Assembly (NCBI RefSeq): GCF_017352155.2
Contig: NZ_CP071462.1
Coordinates: forward strand, 3,596,001 to 3,660,000
DNA from: Haloterrigena alkaliphila
GTDB taxonomy: Archaea; Halobacteriota; Halobacteria; Halobacteriales; Natrialbaceae
Length of the DNA stretch: 64,000 nt
Reading direction: 5' to 3'
Part shown: positions 27,940-41,082 of the stretch, piece by piece
How positions within the stretch are numbered: position 1 is the first letter of the stretch
Layout of the letters: each line of letters opens with the position of its first letter
Position numbers and translations under genes: made by a program
The notes under the pieces: generated by a model
What the model was told of the DNA's origin: nothing
What the model saw: only the letters and a program-made list of their open reading frames with translations
Database searches by the model: none

Positions 27940-28386
27940 TCAGAGTCCGACGACCCAGACCCGTCCGTCCGCGGGGAGGTTGTAGACCCGCTGGAAGACC
28001 GCGTCGAGACACTGCGCGATCCGGTTGGGGTCGGCTTTCGCGCTGACGCGGACGTTGACCCCCTCGACCTCCTCGGGGCGGTGTATCTCGTCGATTTTGA
28101 ACGCCGGGAACTCGCCGAGAACGGACTTGAGCGTCTCGAGTTCCCCGTCAGTGCAGTCGAGGTTGATCGTCCCGTCGGCGAACTGAATCCAGGGGACGCC
28201 GAGGTCGGCGTCCGCCCCGTCCCCGTCGTCAGGATCATCGAGGTCCGATTCGTCGGAATCCGCCGCGAAGGCGCCCGGGTCGGTCTCGAGGGTGAGAAAG
28301 CCCCTCCCGCGTTCGCGGTGGGCGGTGATGGCGTCGACGTACAACTTTCGGCGCTCCGCGGGTTCCGTCGCGTCGAAACGTGTCAT
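27940..28386 (-). CDS. Conserved haloarchaeal hypothetical protein
   Basis: A 148-residue acidic soluble protein with no Cys-rich or membrane feature that would point to function except one Cys pair far apart. It starts [20 protein letters not shown] and has [20 protein letters not shown], then [20 protein letters not shown] and [20 protein letters not shown]. The middle has a variable acidic loop (about 50-62). It is divergent from adk, 60 bases apart, sharing the promoter region, and convergent with the amphi-Trp-like frame. I do not recognise its function. Confidence 0.7.
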
Positions 28387-28445
28387 ACGGGAACGGACGT
28401 GCCCATTTCTTTAAGCCTTTATGTGACGCCGGTGAACGGCCGGCT

Positions 28446-29081
28446 ATGGCACAGCCACGAATTCTGATCCTGGGTGCGCCCGGGGCAGGCAAGGGGACCC
28501 AGAGCGCGAAGATCACCGAGGAGTTCGACGTCGACCACATCACCACCGGCGATGCGCTCCGCGCGAACAAGGACATGGACATCTCCGACATGGACACGGA
28601 GTACGACACCCCACGGGAGTACATGGACCAGGGCGAACTCGTCCCCGACGAGGTCGTCAACGCCATCGTCGACGAGGCACTCAGCCAGGCCGACGGCTTC
28701 GTCCTCGACGGCTATCCGCGGAATCTCGAGCAGGCCGAAGAACTCAAGGGGATGACCGATCTGGACGTCGTGCTCTACCTCGACGTCGACGAGGAGGAAC
28801 TCGTCCACCGGCTGACCGGTCGCCGACTGGACCCCGAGACGGGCGACATCTACCACGTCGAGTACAACCCGCCGGAGGATCCCGAGGTCGAGGAGCGACT
28901 CGAGCAGCGCGACGACGACACCGAAGAGACGGTCCGGGAACGCCTGCGCGTCTTCCGCGAGAACACCGAACCGGTCATCGAATATTACGATGACCAGGGC
29001 GACCTCGAGCGGATCGACGGCGAACAGGCGCCGGACGAGGTCTGGGAGGACGTCAAGGCGACGATCGAAGACGCAGCGTAA
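28446..29081 (+). CDS. adk: Adenylate kinase
   Basis: A 211-residue adenylate kinase of the bacterial-type family (ATP + AMP = 2 ADP). It shows the P-loop [14 protein letters not shown], the AMP-binding TTGDALRA and DGYPRN segments, and [20 protein letters not shown] of the lid, which has no zinc cysteines. ATG 28446 is about 30 bases after a TATA-like ttaagccttt (28411-28420), so it is likely leaderless; the upstream open frame is not used. In many archaea adk belongs to the secY neighbourhood; here it is separated from secY by the thiolase and oxidase block. Confidence 0.97.
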
Positions 29082-29107: not shown

Positions 29108-30622
29108 TCAGTTCCGCTCGATCTCAACGATGTGTTCGGCGACGTTGAGGTAGGTGATCTGTGGCGGCAGCGCGTCGGGATCGGGGTAGATGGAGAGGTC
29201 CGAATTCTGAAGTGACTCGTCGTACTCAAAGTTGAGGCCACCGTTTCCGCCCTGAATTTGGACCGACGAAGCGACCAGCGAGCCGTAGAAACTCGGATTC
29301 GAGTGGAAGCAGATCTGTTTCTGACAGCTGCTTCGCTTGCTCCACTCGGTTCCGGAGCCGCCCGCGTAGATGACGCCCTCGTATCGTGCCTTCCCACCCG
29401 ATCCGAAGTCGAATTCCGACTCAGAGGAAGCGACCATTTGAATTACCTTTGCATCACCGTTGTCCTCGCAGTCGTTTCCGTTCGCAGTCACGCACGTATT
29501 ACCGCCGTTGCTCGCATCGTAATCACCGGTCAGATAAATGCTCAGGGAGTTTCCGGGTTCGTACTCGCTGACAGTGATCGTATCACCGTCGGCATTGATA
29601 TCGCCGTCGACAACCAGCGTCGCATTGCCATTACTGAGATTGAAATCGAGGTGACCTCCTTCGATCCCGTCGGCGAAATAGAGGCCATCACCGAGGGACT
29701 CGGAACCAGTCACCGTTCCCAGATCCGTGACGTTTTCCTCTCCGTCCTCAGGATCGGTCCTGTTGACGTACTTTTCGATCTCGCTATCTAGCTCCGGATA
29801 CGCTGCCTTCGACGCGAGAGCGTCATCGACATCCGACCCACCCTTGGTTTCGAATTCAGTCGCGTAGATCGCCCCGTTCTGGAATGCATCCGAAACCTCC
29901 CTGAATCCGAACTCTGCTGTCACGGTCCCGCGATCGTCGTCGATCACTTCGACGTTCTGGACGGTCGTCGCGCCGGCCTGTTGGTCGAAGTACGCCTCCC
30001 AGCCGCGGTAGTACTCGCTGGTGATCTCGATCGTCACGGTATCGTTCGCGACGAGGCTCGTATTCTGGAGCGGATCCGTCTCGTAGTGCGTGAATCTGAC
30101 GCTCCCGGAGTCGAGGCGCGATTCGCCACGCGTCTTGACGATGGGGAACGAGAGCGTCTCAGAGGCCGCGTCGTACTGGATCGGCGGCGCCGAGACGACC
30201 TGCGTCTTGTTGCCCGTCTCGCGGAACACGCCGCCGGCCTGGTACGCGATTCTGGTCCCATCCTCGCCAGTGTATTCGATCGCACCGATGGTGATGTTCT
30301 TGTCGACGTCACCCCCTTGAATCCGAAGCGTGCCGGTTTCACTCATCACGACCGCGCCGGAGTCCCCGACGTCGAGGTCCATCGATCGAGAGACGTCACT
30401 GCCCGAGGACGCCGTCGCCATCTCCTGGCTCAACTGAACGAATCCCTGCTCGACTCGCTCCGTTTCGGAATCCTGCTCGACGCTCGAGAGCATCTCACCG
30501 GCGACGAGAAAGATACCGAGACTGCCGGCTGCGACCATCCCGATCAACAATACCATCCCCATCAGCGTCGATTGTCCTCGTCTCGAGGGACCTACTCGAT
30601 CGTCCCCACGCGATGCGCTCAT
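29108..30622 (-). CDS. Pilin-like surface protein (DUF7289-like)
   Basis: A 504-residue secreted or membrane-anchored protein. The N-terminus is archaeal-pilin-like: basic SRRGQST, then a long hydrophobic helix (LMGMVLLIGMVAAGSLGIFL, about 20-42). The next ~200 residues share a pattern with the divergent neighbour (an EQGFVQLSQEMATAS helix, GGVFRETG, and ITSEYYRGWEAYFDQQAGAT). The C-terminal half is beta-rich, Asn/Asp/Gly-rich, with a Cys-containing loop (CVTANGNDCEDNG; CQKQICFHSN). The start is ATG 30622. It converges on adk, which ends 26 bases away. The class is well supported; the job (adhesion, pilus or cell-surface assembly) is inference. Confidence 0.75.
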   Translation of the reverse strand: MSASRGDDRVGPSRRGQSTLMGMVLLIGMVAAGSLGIFLVAGEMLSSVEQDSETERVEQGFVQLSQEMATASSGSDVSRSMDLDVGDSGAVVMSETGTLRIQGGDVDKNITIGAIEYTGEDGTRIAYQAGGVFRETGNKTQVVSAPPIQYDAASETLSFPIVKTRGESRLDSGSVRFTHYETDPLQNTSLVANDTVTIEITSEYYRGWEAYFDQQAGATTVQNVEVIDDDRGTVTAEFGFREVSDAFQNGAIYATEFETKGGSDVDDALASKAAYPELDSEIEKYVNRTDPEDGEENVTDLGTVTGSESLGDGLYFADGIEGGHLDFNLSNGNATLVVDGDINADGDTITVSEYEPGNSLSIYLTGDYDASNGGNTCVTANGNDCEDNGDAKVIQMVASSESEFDFGSGGKARYEGVIYAGGSGTEWSKRSSCQKQICFHSNPSFYGSLVASSVQIQGGNGGLNFEYDESLQNSDLSIYPDPDALPPQITYLNVAEHIVEIERN

Positions 30623-30915
30623 ACAACTCTTCTTAACTGTACCGACAATAACAAACTCGGTAGATCAGATACTTCAGAACAGTTTATATCAGTTCAGAGC
30701 AGCCAGAATTAATAATATCTAAGGTTCAAAAATGGAGAAATACATTCGATGAGTTAGATGACGTTCACATAGGTGAGATCACACCATATGGGTCTTGAAT
30801 CACCATCTCTTGGAAAATACTGCAGTAAAATATACTGATTTCTATGAAATACTTTTCAGACAAAAACTCACATAAACGGATAAATATATAATGGAACGTG
30901 AACTAGAGTGAAGAA
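30623..30915. promoter_or_regulatory. AT-rich divergent promoter region
   Basis: This 293-base spacer separates two divergent pilin-like genes and is much richer in A and T than the rest of the window. A TATA box taaatatata (30881-30890) lies about 27 bases before ATG 30916. The minus-strand gene probably uses the ttattg/aacaaa stretch near 30645-30655. AT-rich composition and the two surface genes suggest laterally acquired DNA. Confidence 0.5.
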
Positions 30916-33900
30916 ATGAATGGGGATCGTACTGGGCACGAGTGTAGGTCAGGTGGGGAACACGGTGCATCACCGGTAGTCGGTGTTGCACTCCTCTTCG
31001 GAATGGTTATCGCCGGTGCCGTTTTGATTTTCGTAGCTGCCGGACCGGTGCTCGATGGGATGGAGGGGGAGAGCAACCGAGAACGTGCGCTCATGCAGGT
31101 AAATCAGATCGATCACGCGTTCGCAACCGCGAGCATTTCCGACGAGCCGCAACCGCTCGATGTTCCGTCTACTGCCGATCTGACCGTCTCAGACGATGGA
31201 TCGATCGAAGTCGAGTGGTTCAACGCAGACGATTCCGAGGCCGACAGCTGTACCGTCTCCGGCGAACTTCGTTCTCTCGAGTACGAACTCGAGGACCGAA
31301 CGTTCGTTCACCAGGGCGGGGGAATCTGGGAACGGAGCAACGGCGAGGCGACGGTCGTTTCGGAACCGCAGATCGGGTACGACGGCGAGAGCTTACAGCT
31401 TCATATCATGCAACTCGACGAAGGGGACGTCGGCGGGTCAGAGTTCGCAGCGAAGGCGGACTACAGCAAGTCGACGCAGCTCACGGCGGATATCAAATCG
31501 GCTGCGACAGACTGCGCTGAGCCGGACATTGCGTTTCGCATCGAAAGCGAGTACCATCAGGCGTGGTACACGTACCTCGAGAGCGCACTCGGTGCAGCCG
31601 AGCACGACGAAGTGACCGTGGAGCAACGCAACGACACCGTGGAAGTAACGATCGAGGGCGTTAGGAACGTCTCGGAGGCGCCGGAGGTTATCGTTACTGC
31701 GGACTACGGATTGCAAGGTGATGCCGTTGTCGGCACCAACCGCGTTATCCATCCCGACGAGTTCAACCCGACACCTCACCTGGAGATAACGGCTGGGTTC
31801 GCGAAAACCGTCGACGAGGACATCGAGCAAGACCTTCACTTCATGGTCGTCGGTGAAGGCGTGAGTGAGACGATCAGAAATGTGCAGTTCAATGGCGACC
31901 AGGATGACGAAATACGGAGGCCGTTCAGGATCGCCCCGGGAGAGTACCGTCACACACTCGAGCCCGGCCAGACGTACGAGTACGATATTTCGACCGCGGA
32001 CGATTCGCTAAGCGACAGAGGATCGTTCTACGTCGGGAACGAGGGAATCGATTTCGTCAAGACCGCGCCGGAGAACGACGATATCACGACGACGACGGAT
32101 GACGGTAACGTGACGATCAGTCTCGACGTGCGGAATATCGGCGTCGAGAGCGGCTCCCAGGACGTGACGCTGACGCTCGATGACTTCCCGCACGTCACGA
32201 ACACCCAGAGTCCACACCTCGAGTACGGCGAAGACGGTACTGTCGAGTGGACGATCAACCAGAGCGCGCTGCCGGTGGGAGAGTACGACTTCACGATCGA
32301 CGTTGACGGAGAGGACGTCGGAACGGGAACGATTCGTGGCGAAGCGAGCAGTGGCGAGGGTGGATTCGTCGTCGTCGAAGACGAGGGCGTCGACGGGGAG
32401 TACGTCGATCGGGACCAGATCGTCCGATCCGACGGTGAATTCACCGTCCGCGCTGGTATCGCGAGTACGTACCCGACCGACGGCGTTACGGAAGACGTTA
32501 CGTTGACAATTCACGGTGTCGACGTCGAGATCCCCGAGCCGATAACGCTCGACGGCGGAGAACGGGGAACGATCGCCTTCGACGTCGATCCCGACGAGTA
32601 CGACCTCGAGCCAGGAACCGTCTACGATTACGACGTCACGACCGACGACGGCGGGCTGAGCGAAACCGGATCGTTCTACTTCGGCCATCCGGATACCCAC
32701 TTCGCGCTCTCGAACGGAAACGCGACGGTCGGCGACGAGGTTACGATCCGCGCCGACGTCCACAACACGGGGATCGACGACGGTTCCCAGTCGATCGACC
32801 TCGACCTCGAGTACCAAGGCGAGTTACCCGGTGACCTCGAGGAGGACCCGTACGCGGACCTCGACGTCGACGCGAGCGACGTCGACCGATCGTTCGGCGA
32901 GAACGGGACGATCGAGTTCGAACTCAACCAGAGCGCCCTCATCGACGGGGAGTACAAGATGACGATCCGGTCGGGCGACGACAGCGTGATGGTACCGTTT
33001 ACCGTTACCGCCGGTGTCGACCCGAACCGGGTTGGACTCGGCGAAATCGAAGACGCGGAAGTGACCGTCGAGGTCCTCGGCTCGCAGGTCTCAGGTGACG
33101 GATTAACCGGTGATCACCAACTCGCACCGATGACGCTCGAAATCATCGCCAACGGAGAATCGATACACGCCTTCGAAAATCCCGCTAGCGGAAACAACAT
33201 CAATGTCGGACCGACGTGGCAAAACAAAAACGACGACAGCTATCGGCACGAGTTCACGGTCGGCGAGGAAACCGATCTTACGCTACGGAACACGAGATAC
33301 GCGAGCAGTAGGTGGAACTGGTGGAGGCAAAGCCCCACCTGTGCCGATCAGATTACCGACCCGAGTACGTTACCCCACTATACGGGTCCATCCCAGCGGG
33401 ATCTGGCGTGGTGTACTAACGTCCCAGGAACCACTGCGTTCGGTCCGATCGATGCCTCGCAGGGGGAGAACCTGCAAAACGTCAGGGTCCGGAGCGCCGA
33501 AGACAACTCGATTCCGGCACTACCCGCGGGGACAGCCCAGCAACTGAGTGCCACCGAGGTCCTCGAGCGGCAGGGACTGATCGCGGAAAGCGGGGACGAA
33601 CTCGACCTCGGTCCCGGCGAGTTCGTGTTCCTGTTCGAGAACACGGAATCCACGAACGAGGACGGCATCGATGCACTCTGGAATGAAGCTATCGGCGCCT
33701 ACGAGGAGAACCCCTCTCAGACGCACGATCCGAACTTCAACGACCTGATCGTCTACGTGCGGGTCGAGCGAGCGGGCGTCGATCCCGGAACGCCCAGCAT
33801 CAGGATCGTTCCCGGGGGTGGCGAGTCGACCGAGGTCAGCTCCGGCGACGGAACCGCCGCCGGAGAGCCAGGCGACGTGAGCGTCGACGTCGATGGGAGT

Positions 33901-34026
33901 TCTAGCGGCTCCGGTATCGATTCCATCGGACCCGGAACCTCGAGCAACGAGAGTGGGAACGATGGCGTGGCCTCGATCGACGAATCCGATATCGATCTCA
34001 GCTCCGATTACATCGTCGTCGGCTAA
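30916..34026 (+). CDS. Large pilin-like surface protein with CARDB-like repeats
   Basis: A 1036-residue acidic protein. The N-terminus is pilin-like (GASPVVGVALLFGMVIAGAV then LIFVAAG, about 17-43) and is followed by a ~200-residue part resembling the divergent neighbour (RIESEYHQAWYTYLESALGA). Two CARDB-like beta domains follow, each ending in a repeated element: LEPGQTYEYDISTADDSLSD-RGSFYVG near 350-375 and LEPGTVYDYDVTTDDGGLSE-TGSFYFG near 560-590. Repeated NQSALPVGEYDFTI and NQSALIDGEYKMTI segments mark further copies. A Ser/Gly-rich tail closes it. The signal-anchor and repeats suggest an extended adhesin. Ligand unknown. Confidence 0.75.
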   Translation: MNGDRTGHECRSGGEHGASPVVGVALLFGMVIAGAVLIFVAAGPVLDGMEGESNRERALMQVNQIDHAFATASISDEPQPLDVPSTADLTVSDDGSIEVEWFNADDSEADSCTVSGELRSLEYELEDRTFVHQGGGIWERSNGEATVVSEPQIGYDGESLQLHIMQLDEGDVGGSEFAAKADYSKSTQLTADIKSAATDCAEPDIAFRIESEYHQAWYTYLESALGAAEHDEVTVEQRNDTVEVTIEGVRNVSEAPEVIVTADYGLQGDAVVGTNRVIHPDEFNPTPHLEITAGFAKTVDEDIEQDLHFMVVGEGVSETIRNVQFNGDQDDEIRRPFRIAPGEYRHTLEPGQTYEYDISTADDSLSDRGSFYVGNEGIDFVKTAPENDDITTTTDDGNVTISLDVRNIGVESGSQDVTLTLDDFPHVTNTQSPHLEYGEDGTVEWTINQSALPVGEYDFTIDVDGEDVGTGTIRGEASSGEGGFVVVEDEGVDGEYVDRDQIVRSDGEFTVRAGIASTYPTDGVTEDVTLTIHGVDVEIPEPITLDGGERGTIAFDVDPDEYDLEPGTVYDYDVTTDDGGLSETGSFYFGHPDTHFALSNGNATVGDEVTIRADVHNTGIDDGSQSIDLDLEYQGELPGDLEEDPYADLDVDASDVDRSFGENGTIEFELNQSALIDGEYKMTIRSGDDSVMVPFTVTAGVDPNRVGLGEIEDAEVTVEVLGSQVSGDGLTGDHQLAPMTLEIIANGESIHAFENPASGNNINVGPTWQNKNDDSYRHEFTVGEETDLTLRNTRYASSRWNWWRQSPTCADQITDPSTLPHYTGPSQRDLAWCTNVPGTTAFGPIDASQGENLQNVRVRSAEDNSIPALPAGTAQQLSATEVLERQGLIAESGDELDLGPGEFVFLFENTESTNEDGIDALWNEAIGAYEENPSQTHDPNFNDLIVYVRVERAGVDPGTPSIRIVPGGGESTEVSSGDGTAAGEPGDVSVDVDGSSSGSGIDSIGPGTSSNESGNDGVASIDESDIDLSSDYIVVG

Positions 34027-34172: not shown

Positions 34173-35120
34173 ATGACGCGTACAGCGGAGAAAATCGACG
34201 ACCTCGTCCGCGAGGATTCCTCCATGTCCGAGGCCCTCGAGGCCATCCGCGAGGCGGCCGACCGGAACGGAGGCGAGGTCCACTGGGCCGACGTCAACGA
34301 CGATTTGACGAGCGGTCAATGGGGCCGACTGATCGAGAAGGGTGTACTGGTCGACGGCGGCGAGGGGTTCGAGATCGCCGACCGCGAAGCGTACGACGAA
34401 GCCCTCGACGGCGACGGCGGTGACTACGGCGGCGACGTCGAGATCGACGCGGAGCAATCCAAGTGGTCTCAGTGGGACAAACTCGCCGGCGTCGGCTCCC
34501 TCCTGTTGATGTTCGGCTACTGGATCGACTCCGTACAGGCGATGGTCGGGAGCACGATCAACACGGTGCTCGCGCCGCTGAACGACGCGTTGCCGTTCTA
34601 CGCCGTGATCCTCTCGATCGCCCTGCTGACGGGGCTGTACTCGACGCTGCTGCAGGCGAACCTGACGAACCCCGAGATCATGGGCAAGTACCAGGAGCGA
34701 ATGAAGGCCATGCAGGAGAAGCAAAAGGACGTCCGCCAGCGCAAGAAGGACGCCGAGGAGCGCGGCGCCAGCGAGGCCGAGATCGAACGTCTCGAGGACG
34801 AACTCGAGGAGGCCCGCGAGGAGCAGATGGAAGCCATGGCGGAGAACCTCGGCATGTTCAAGGAGCAACTCCGTCCGATGGTCTGGATCATGCTGTTGAC
34901 GATCCCGCTGTTCCTCTGGATGTACTGGAAGGTCCACGGCGTCGGCCTCGCGAGCACGGAATCGACCGTGATCATGCCGCTGGTCGGCGAAACGAGCTGG
35001 AACGCGGGCGTGATCGGACCGATGCGGGCCTGGATCGTCTGGTACTTCCTGTGCTCGATGGGCTTTACGCAGTTGTTGCGCAAGGCCCTGAACATCGATA
35101 TGACGCCGTCGGGCACCTGA
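34173..35120 (+). CDS. DUF106 / Ylp1 membrane insertase-like protein
   Basis: A 315-residue archaeal DUF106 protein, a member of the Oxa1/YidC/EMC3 superfamily that helps insert membrane proteins. After an N-terminal soluble part (about 1-90) come three hydrophobic segments (about 105-125 with 130-165, then 232-250 and 285-305) interrupted by a cytoplasmic coiled coil rich in Lys and Glu (KYQERMKAMQEKQKDVRQRK). Position with adk, cmk and cbf5 matches the usual archaeal secY neighbourhood, which supports a role beside the translocon. ATG 34173. Confidence 0.9.
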   Translation: MTRTAEKIDDLVREDSSMSEALEAIREAADRNGGEVHWADVNDDLTSGQWGRLIEKGVLVDGGEGFEIADREAYDEALDGDGGDYGGDVEIDAEQSKWSQWDKLAGVGSLLLMFGYWIDSVQAMVGSTINTVLAPLNDALPFYAVILSIALLTGLYSTLLQANLTNPEIMGKYQERMKAMQEKQKDVRQRKKDAEERGASEAEIERLEDELEEAREEQMEAMAENLGMFKEQLRPMVWIMLLTIPLFLWMYWKVHGVGLASTESTVIMPLVGETSWNAGVIGPMRAWIVWYFLCSMGFTQLLRKALNIDMTPSGT

Positions 35121-39284: not shown

Positions 39285-39824
39285 TTACGGAGCCGTGAGT
39301 TCCTTCTCGGCGAATGTCGTATCAGATTGCGTGTGGACAAGGTGGATGGAGAACTTGTCACCAGACGATAGTTCGTCACCGATATCATTACCAGAGACAC
39401 CGGAGACAATCGTTAGTTGTGCACCTCCACCGAATACGTCATCACCACTTGGCGATGAACCATCCAGCAGGACTTCGTCGCTACTCGGGCTCCAATCAGT
39501 GTTGTCAAACGTCCGGATGTTCTGGCCGTCAGGTCCACGAACGATAACTTCTAAATTAGCCATCTCAACGGAGTCACCACTCGTGTGAGTAACATAGGCT
39601 AATTCATTGGCGTTCGAATCGTTCCACCCTGAGTTAGTACTGGCGTCCGTAGCGGTTTGTGGGCCAGTATTACCCATGTCGTCGCCCATGTCCAGCACGA
39701 ACGCCGCGATGACTGCTGCGAGAATGACCGTGATGGCCACCATTAGGATGACGCCGATGACGGGCGATACGGCCCGTTCCTCTTCGCTTCCGATCAGCTT
39801 GTTTCTGTATTTGTGTAGGTCCAT
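39285..39824 (-). CDS. Type IV pilin (DUF1628 N-terminal domain)
   Basis: A 179-residue archaeal type IV pilin. The class III signal is plain: [20 protein letters not shown], then the hydrophobic helix [20 protein letters not shown]. PibD would cleave just before the helix region, after the charged stretch, and the rest (beta-rich, Ser/Asp/Asn-rich) would be the exposed head. I chose ATG 39824 for the usual MDLHKY start; ATG 39845 would add seven residues. No pilus motor genes are nearby, so it must use a machine encoded elsewhere. Confidence 0.92.
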
Positions 39825-41082
39825 AGTTGCGTTGTCTGTTTTCACGCACCCGTGAACGGTGGGAAGGCTTATCTCGGGCGGCGCGGAACCGACCCAGTGG
39901 CGCTCGAGGGGGATTGGGAACCGATCCTCGGCGTCGCCTTCTGCCGTCGTCCGGTGCTGATAGCAACCAGCGAATCCAGCCTATATATAATTAATCCATA
40001 GTATGACTGTTGGTGTTTCCAGATAGCCACGAATCGGTTTCAGTCGTGATAATCAAGGGGTTGCAGAGGGGTTACAGCACACCCTTGAACCCGCACTGTC
40101 GGGCGATTTCGAGGGGTTCGGAACTTCTCGATAAAGGTTGTGGCCGCGACCTCGAGCGGCGTCGAATCCCGAATCGGTCCGGCGAACGACCCCCGAATTC
40201 TCGCGCGCGCTTCGAACCTCGAGCGATTCCGGTCGAGTCTCGAGTTCGAGTACGGGATCGATCGCTCGATTCGTGTCTCGAATCCGAGTGACTCGCTGTC
40301 ACGGATCGCCGGGCGCCGCTCGTCGATGTTGGTGGCCCCCTTCGGTGGGGCTACTCGAATGCTGTCTGATCGATACGCACGCGAATGCGACTAAGCGGAA
40401 AGAAGATGAAGACCAGTGTCCCGCCGACCAGATGGAACGGGAAGGGCAGTGTCCTGCTATCGTGGCAACAGGGAGACGCCACGCCCTCCCCAACCGATTC
40501 GCTCACTCCTTGGCTCACGGCTTCGCCGTTCGCCTTTCCGCGGCGCGTAGCGCCGCGCGTCCGTCGTTCGCTCATCCCTCGCGCAGATTCGTGTCGGACT
40601 CGTTGTTCACTCGCCGCGACACAGCGCGCGCCACCGCACGGTTGTACAGTACGACGCCGAACCACGCTCGAGTTCACCGTAACGGTCCGACTCGTGACGC
40701 GCAGCACTACTCGAGTCACGACTCGTCGCTCGAGGATTCCGTAAAACGGGTGGAAGTACCCATCGGCACGATCTGACCAGCTATTCGATTGGGCACTCCA
40801 CGCGGTTCGATCCCGGAACGCGGTCCACGGTATCGTCACCGGGATCATTTAGCGGGATGACATTTTGTCTAATAATTCTTTCGATTCCGCGTGAGAGTTT
40901 GGAAAACTCGCCGACGGCGAGGCCGTGGGCCGCCGTCGGTCCGGCGCGACGCGTTTGCTCGGTGTCGAGCTGGCCCCACCGTGGATCGCAGCGAGCGAGA
41001 ACGGTTGCTCGAGACGAGCCACTCGATCGGCAAGTAGATTCAAGCCCGCCCGCTCACAGGGTAGTCGATAGGTATCGGTTCC
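39825..41082. other. Gene-poor region with degenerate GC palindromes
   Basis: About 1.25 kb without a convincing gene. Near 39983-40000 there is an AT-rich tatatataattaatcc. At 40323-40348 a ggcccccttcggtggggctac hairpin follows, on the minus strand, a frame ending FFPLSRIRVRIDQTAFE that could be the remains of a gene. From 40480 to 40600 the DNA is full of short palindromes (cggcttcgccg, gcgcgtagcgc) like those at the left end of the window. Long frames here have Arg/Ser-rich products and look spurious. Confidence 0.5.

Follow-up and report, generated by a model that had tools for sequence, protein, structure and literature searches.

What are the two large divergent genes that lie between adk and DUF106 in the chromosome of Haloterrigena alkaliphila (Natrialbaceae), and do they work as a pair? 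Haloarchaeal genomes encode predicted pilins by the dozen, with roles that are unknown; how haloarchaeal pili choose a surface is, to our knowledge, not known either. The window, i.e., the whole stretch of 64,000 nucleotides analyzed here, contains gene A (29108..30622, minus strand, 504 aa) and gene B (30916..34026, plus strand, 1036 aa), which an earlier sequence-only reading had described as a pair of pilin-like giant surface proteins in a housekeeping setting. Both ORFs were recovered as described, and "giant" suits B better than A. The housekeeping setting was also confirmed. On one side lies adk (adenylate kinase; 28446..29081, plus strand; PF00406; start read as M-A-Q-P-R-I within the ORF at 28380-29081), which is the stable flank, and on the other side lie DUF106-cmk-truB, where DUF106/EMC3 (archaeal YidC-like insertase; 34173..35120, plus strand; PF01956, E 8.6e-39) is the other flank in most genomes. 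About 5 kb from A and B, near tRNA-Pro, the window also encodes a small PilA-like pilin of the Pilin_N family (39285-39845, 186 aa), and a similar gene is found near the site in Natronolimnohabitans innermongolicus and two congeners.

The ORF and its Pfam matches identified the product of gene A as a putative modular pilin with the architecture DUF7289 + DUF7305, and most of the family has a syntenic A-type gene downstream of adk. Residues 1-239 of A (29906..30622, minus strand) comprise a class III-type signal, a long N-terminal helix and the DUF7289 pilin module, which was matched at residues 15-239 (PF23960, profile positions 1-223, 83.6 bits, E 2e-23). Residues 264-473 (29204..29833, minus strand) form the DUF7305 module, which matched positions 4-184 of the 185-position profile above its curated cut-off (PF23981, 117.4 bits, E 8.9e-34). 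This module carries four cysteines and corresponds to the Cys-containing region noted previously. Its Cys433 and Cys438 (29309..29326, minus strand) form a motif of the C-x-x-Q-x-C type and may be joined by a disulphide; the motif C-x(2,6)-Q-x-C is found in 40 of 88 A-type proteins. The N-terminal domain of A also matches phrog_29908 (E 1.8e-26), an unnamed virus protein family.

The product of gene B, likewise identified as a putative modular pilin by its ORF and Pfam matches, has full-length homologues in Natrinema, Natronorubrum, Natribaculum and Natronolimnohabitans. Its residues 1-252 (30916..31671, plus strand) comprise a class III-type signal, a long helix and the DUF7289 pilin module (PF23960 at residues 17-252, profile positions 2-228, 67 bits, E 2.4e-18). 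They are followed at residues 257-697 (31684..33006, plus strand) by a duplicated CARDB/Ig-like unit with four predicted beta-sandwich domains. The duplicated CARDB-like domains reported by the sequence-only reading are thus borne out by a CARDB match (PF07705) at residues 391-467 and by the internal duplication itself, in which residues 257-480 align to residues 481-700 with 33% identity over 217 aa (E 2e-19). Residues 701-970 (33016..33825, plus strand), the last 270 structured residues of B, matched no Pfam family. This C-terminal domain is nevertheless the best conserved part of the protein: in an alignment of ten full-length homologues most of the invariant columns are concentrated there, and a conserved motif is found around FGPIDASQ.ENLQNVRVRSAEN.

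Despite these different C-terminal parts, A and B were correctly recognized as pilin-like proteins with one common module, as each scored far above the curated cut-off of PF23960 (27 bits) and the common segments of the two proteins are 31% identical over 269 columns (E 3e-20). DUF7289 is found in 376 of 392 genomes of the order. The source genome has three members, i.e., A, B and a protein of 254 aa encoded by the last gene of the operon PilB-PilC-DUF7287-DUF7288-DUF7261-DUF7266-DUF7289. Because this 254-aa protein closes a PilB-PilC operon, DUF7289 can be identified as a minor pilin family. Chemotaxis genes (CheR and CheC-like) come after this operon in the source genome (L019:9321-17001). 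Genes with additional modules also occur in such surroundings elsewhere. On plasmid pHME505 of Haloferax mediterranei, a DUF7289 + DUF7305 protein with the architecture of A adjoins a Pilin_N pilin and a KaiC-like gene, which are followed by PilB, PilC, DUF7287, DUF7288, DUF7266, DUF7289 and another pilin, so that this A-type gene sits within a complete type IV pilus cluster. On a plasmid of Salinigranum marinum, a minor-pilin operon ends with DUF7289 and is followed by a DUF7289 + VWA protein. The DUF7266 minor pilin on the latter plasmid (L322:4126-6171) has PKD domains, and the modular design therefore extends beyond DUF7289. Given that DUF7289 originates from a minor pilin and that an A-type gene is part of the pHME505 pilus cluster, A and B are best read as archaeal modular pilins.

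The signal sites of A and B were compared with the archaeal PibD rule, in which G, A or S is found at position -1 and a charged residue, critical for processing, at position -2 (PMC4371748). Among the family proteins with an assignable signal site, 112 of 127 have RG or RA at positions -2/-1. The site of A reads RRG/QSTLMG (also written RRG/QSTLMGMVLLIG), with Gly at -1 and Arg at -2; judged by its residues, it is a standard archaeal class III site that conforms to the rule for PibD substrates. The site of B reads GEHG/ASPVVG, with Gly at -1 and His at -2, where the relatives of B have Arg. This His speaks against the pilin model, as it occupies the position at which a charged residue was described as critical (PMC4371748). 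It counts in favor of an alternative in which A and B are signal-anchored surface proteins, whose pilin-like N-termini would be an anchor or a cleaved, membrane-held helix and whose modules would cover the cell without forming a filament. Such an arrangement has been proposed for bindosome-type PibD substrates, and large substrate-binding PibD substrates exist in Sulfolobales (PMC4371748). Also in line with this alternative, A and B alike have a single, N-terminal hydrophobic segment and no second anchor, and neither gene is near any PilB or PilC gene in the source genome. The alternative does not, however, account for the homology of DUF7289 over its full length to the minor pilin of the PilB-PilC operon or for the A-type and VWA-type genes inside type IV pilus clusters elsewhere, and we regard it as unlikely. 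For A and B as pilins, the source genome offers one peptidase A24 gene, the sole prepilin-peptidase candidate, and several PilB-like ATPases.

The AlphaFold models of A and B are of low to moderate confidence (mean pLDDT of 55.9 and 64.9, respectively), and the folds described here are accordingly predictions. A helix at residues 17-71 (moderate pLDDT) is followed by a beta-rich head in the model of A, and a helix at residues 20-75 is followed by a beta-rich head in that of B, whose C-terminal domain falls in the low-confidence part. Structure searches with these low- to moderate-confidence models returned no pilin match, and a sequence search for relatives among solved structures found none. 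The VIA list for A is likewise without pilins, which excludes nothing. Foldseek returned no hit under 1e-3 for the whole model of A and alpha-2-macroglobulin chains at a TM of about 0.13 for that of B; these whole-model hits say no more than "string of Ig-like domains". DUF7305 of A is probably a beta-solenoid-like domain, as suggested by weak structural matches of its low-confidence model to bactofilin (Z 5.4) and a tapirin domain (Z 6.1), although matches with Z < 8 may reflect just the common beta-solenoid arrangement.

The 293-bp region between the two genes (30623..30915) has a G+C content of 33.8%, compared to 64.2% for the window, and is more AT-rich than every other 293-bp stretch sampled in the window. 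The "shared AT-rich promoter" proposed before is thus accurate with regard to an AT-rich common region but not with regard to a single promoter, as each gene has its own TATA-like element (30680-30689 for A and 30881-30889 for B), recognized by resemblance to the consensus. This head-to-head order across an AT-rich gap is repeated in N. innermongolicus, which would favor the earlier proposal of a two-part filament or adhesion system in which A and B act together.

To follow the locus beyond the window, 100 loci upstream of DUF106 were fetched from Natrialbaceae genomes. Annotation of these loci, as well as of the window and the loci of five congeners and N. innermongolicus, relied on HMMs derived from the proteins of the window and from relatives of these proteins. 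The counts below refer to the 102 loci with adk and DUF106 on one stretch. Between adk and DUF106, one to three DUF7289/DUF7305 genes are found in 90 of the 102 loci, with a single gene in 61; the slot is empty in the other 12, where the gaps measure 52-352 bp. The cargo of the slot genes varies and includes DUF7305, DUF7305 + vWA, CARDB with the end domain of B, and DUF7305 + bactofilin. As many as 120 of the 122 slot genes point towards adk, and the two exceptions are B of the window and B of N. innermongolicus. No DUF7289 gene was found in 37 adk-DUF106 loci of two other families, which marks the slot as a Natrialbaceae feature. Three other-family loci (L214, L229, and L238) have an adk-DUF106 gap of 1.5-4.2 kb with no DUF7289 match.

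These counts bear directly on the two-part proposal. Tandem A and B-like genes are present at the adk site in G079, G080, G083, G096, G103, and G124, which would suit joint action. The head-to-head order, however, occurs in just 2 of the 102 loci, those of the window and N. innermongolicus. In each of the five congeners an A-type gene is retained at the adk site and B is missing from it, and genomes that lack DUF7305 genes altogether can have B-like genes (e.g., G037-G040 and G118). The co-occurrence of A and B is inconsistent, and each occurs without the other. As the trees of A and B also disagree (see below), the proposal of a two-part system fails and we assign it only a very small probability.

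Full-length relatives of B in Natrinema, Natronorubrum and Natribaculum occupy another site. Their neighbors there are a SipW-like signal peptidase I, a regulator with DUF7344, DUF5305, EMC6 and RLI, together with secreted proteins, one of them with CARDB and others related to TafA/C/E. As its scores fall below the Taf equivalog cut-offs, this cluster is probably a related, unnamed fimbrial system. The conserved cluster was seen at L288 (G000:C1:1074000-1091000), L025-L029, and L099-L107, with EMC6 at L099:13229-13651. In the congeners, the second site holds a DUF7289 + DUF7305 + vWA gene, an architecture confirmed by Pfam in relatives, and in the source genome it is without a DUF7289 gene. 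With adk and RLI as the reference genes, the two sites together account for 92 of the 99 large DUF7289 genes in the list.

In a tree of the DUF7289 module, the A, vWA and B genes form separate clades, each starred. The vWA pattern used for the loci and the tree is crude and mislabelled about eight A-type rows of the tree; the clades do not depend on it. B of the window and B of N. innermongolicus are sisters (98) within the clade of second-site B genes, and the simplest explanation of this nesting is that B moved once into the adk slot. A of the window clusters with the A sequences of four genomes that belong to two other genera, apart from those of the congeners and N. innermongolicus. While adk, DUF106, cmk and truB of the window are 81-88% identical to those of the congeners, A is only 37-38% identical, and A looks replaced at the adk slot. 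The discordant placements of A and B show that the two genes have separate histories. Two further possibilities were considered and rejected. Frequent shuffling of C-terminal modules between carriers was unsupported, as the DUF7289 tree follows cargo type, and the gene mostly moves as a whole. An origin from a virus or mobile element was not supported either, with no relative in viral contigs and no match to phage records by tblastn.

The recurrence of EMC genes at both sites raises another alternative, in which A and B would serve, or be served by, an archaeal EMC-like insertase, with the giant pilins as clients of EMC3/EMC6. A DUF106-EMC6 heterodimer has been predicted in archaea (PMC8675477), and of the 99 large DUF7289 genes listed, 51 are within about 10 kb of EMC6 and 30 are next to EMC3. 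Together these make 81 of the 99 near EMC3 or EMC6, a count that looked striking at first. This link is weakened by loci in which gene order is broken, and two sites do not suffice for statistics. In genomes with adk and DUF106 apart (G028-G033, i.e., five genomes of one genus and G033), the pilin array stays with adk and not with EMC3, which argues that the neighbors mark a position rather than a partner. Moreover, a large gene of G007 lies beside RLI in a stretch with no EMC6, and empty slots keep their EMC genes. We consider a functional link of this kind highly improbable.

Taken together, the explanation that we find fairly probable is that A and B are modular type IV pilins, cut by PibD and assembled by PilB/PilC as adhesins, and that they are two independent occupants of an exchange slot downstream of adk. 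Under this model, A and B would enter the membrane by Sec insertion of the N-terminal hydrophobic helix and would then be cut before the helix by the only prepilin-peptidase candidate in the genome (PibD cleavage). The DUF7289 module would hand them to one of the PilB/PilC machines, where they would replace the ordinary DUF7289 minor pilin; in haloarchaea, pilins encoded in trans are known to be accepted by such machines (PMC4858521). As their bulky C-terminal modules would not pack along the filament, A and B would most likely be placed at or near the pilus tip, a display modelled on PilB of Streptococcus sanguinis (PMC8179133). The C-terminal modules, i.e., DUF7305 with its Cys pair in A and the Ig-like stalk with the conserved end domain in B, would then be displayed outside the S-layer. 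By analogy, adhesion is the likeliest role, given the vWA-bearing relatives, the Ig-like stalks and the second slot inside a fimbrial cluster, and A and B are probably pilus-presented adhesins. Across Natrialbaceae, genes of this kind would have been gained, lost and replaced in the slot downstream of adk, which B would have reached, inverted, from the second slot in the Taf-like fimbrial cluster. Of this model, the domain composition, the derivation of DUF7289 from a minor pilin, the slot with its orientation rule and the disagreeing histories of A and B are shown by the present analysis, while processing, assembly, placement at the tip and adhesion are inferred. A broader proposal, which we put forward tentatively and with some doubt, is that Natrialbaceae have two adhesin slots with one DUF7289 carrier, whose occupants are replaced and moved between slots so that a single set of pili would carry different tips, as an archaeal counterpart of adhesin cassette exchange.

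The sequence-only reading could not match the pair to a named system. The kind of protein is in fact known in bacteria as modular pilins, and A and B are real and coherent proteins of this kind, while we found no description of the archaeal family in the literature. Like PilB and PilC of S. sanguinis (PMC8179133), A and B combine a pilin module with a C-terminal module that is not specific to pilus biology, i.e., DUF7305 or the CARDB array, with vWA and bactofilin cargo in their relatives; the cargo is widely varied in both groups and includes vWA modules in both. In contrast to the bacterial proteins, A and B have the archaeal DUF7289 module instead of the N-methylation motif of IPR012902, for which no match was found in A or B with Pfam or NCBIfam. 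They also carry different cargo, are encoded in a family-wide chromosomal slot and are known here from sequence. As the IPR012902 motif is absent from these matches, A and B are better said to work like bacterial modular pilins than to be members of that group.

Among haloarchaeal pilins, A and B have the same N-terminal family (PF23960) as a minor pilin of the PilB-PilC operon (DUF7287, DUF7288, DUF7261, DUF7266, and DUF7289). The DUF7289 protein of the operon, however, is about 250 aa long with no extra module, whereas the genes of A and B lie apart from the machine and the proteins have 250-780 further residues. The PilA adhesion pilins of Haloferax volcanii (PilB3-PilC3, PibD) resemble A and B in their class III signal and in having genes outside the machine locus, and PilA-type pilins of H. 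volcanii assemble in trans. They differ in being small major pilins of the Pilin_N family, in contrast to the far larger A and B with their DUF7289 matches. PilY1 and tapirin, which are tip or pilus-linked adhesins, share with A and B a large surface module on a type IV pilus and, in the case of tapirin, the weak structural match to DUF7305 mentioned above. Unlike A and B, they are not pilins, and sequence searches found no relation.

We found no experiment on any DUF7289 protein in the literature and no paper naming DUF7289 or describing the archaeal family. As far as this search shows, the archaeal carrier family, its range of cargo, the existence of two slots and the movement of genes between these are new. 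If DUF7289 is a general carrier, proteins now called "hypothetical" would form a well-defined set of candidate pilus-tip adhesins that carry a small number of cargo types, i.e., DUF7305, vWA, CARDB with the B end domain, and bactofilin-like modules, and the modular-pilin strategy described in bacteria would also be used in archaea. As natural loci already include empty slots as well as slots with one or several genes, this possibility lends itself to a simple genetic test.
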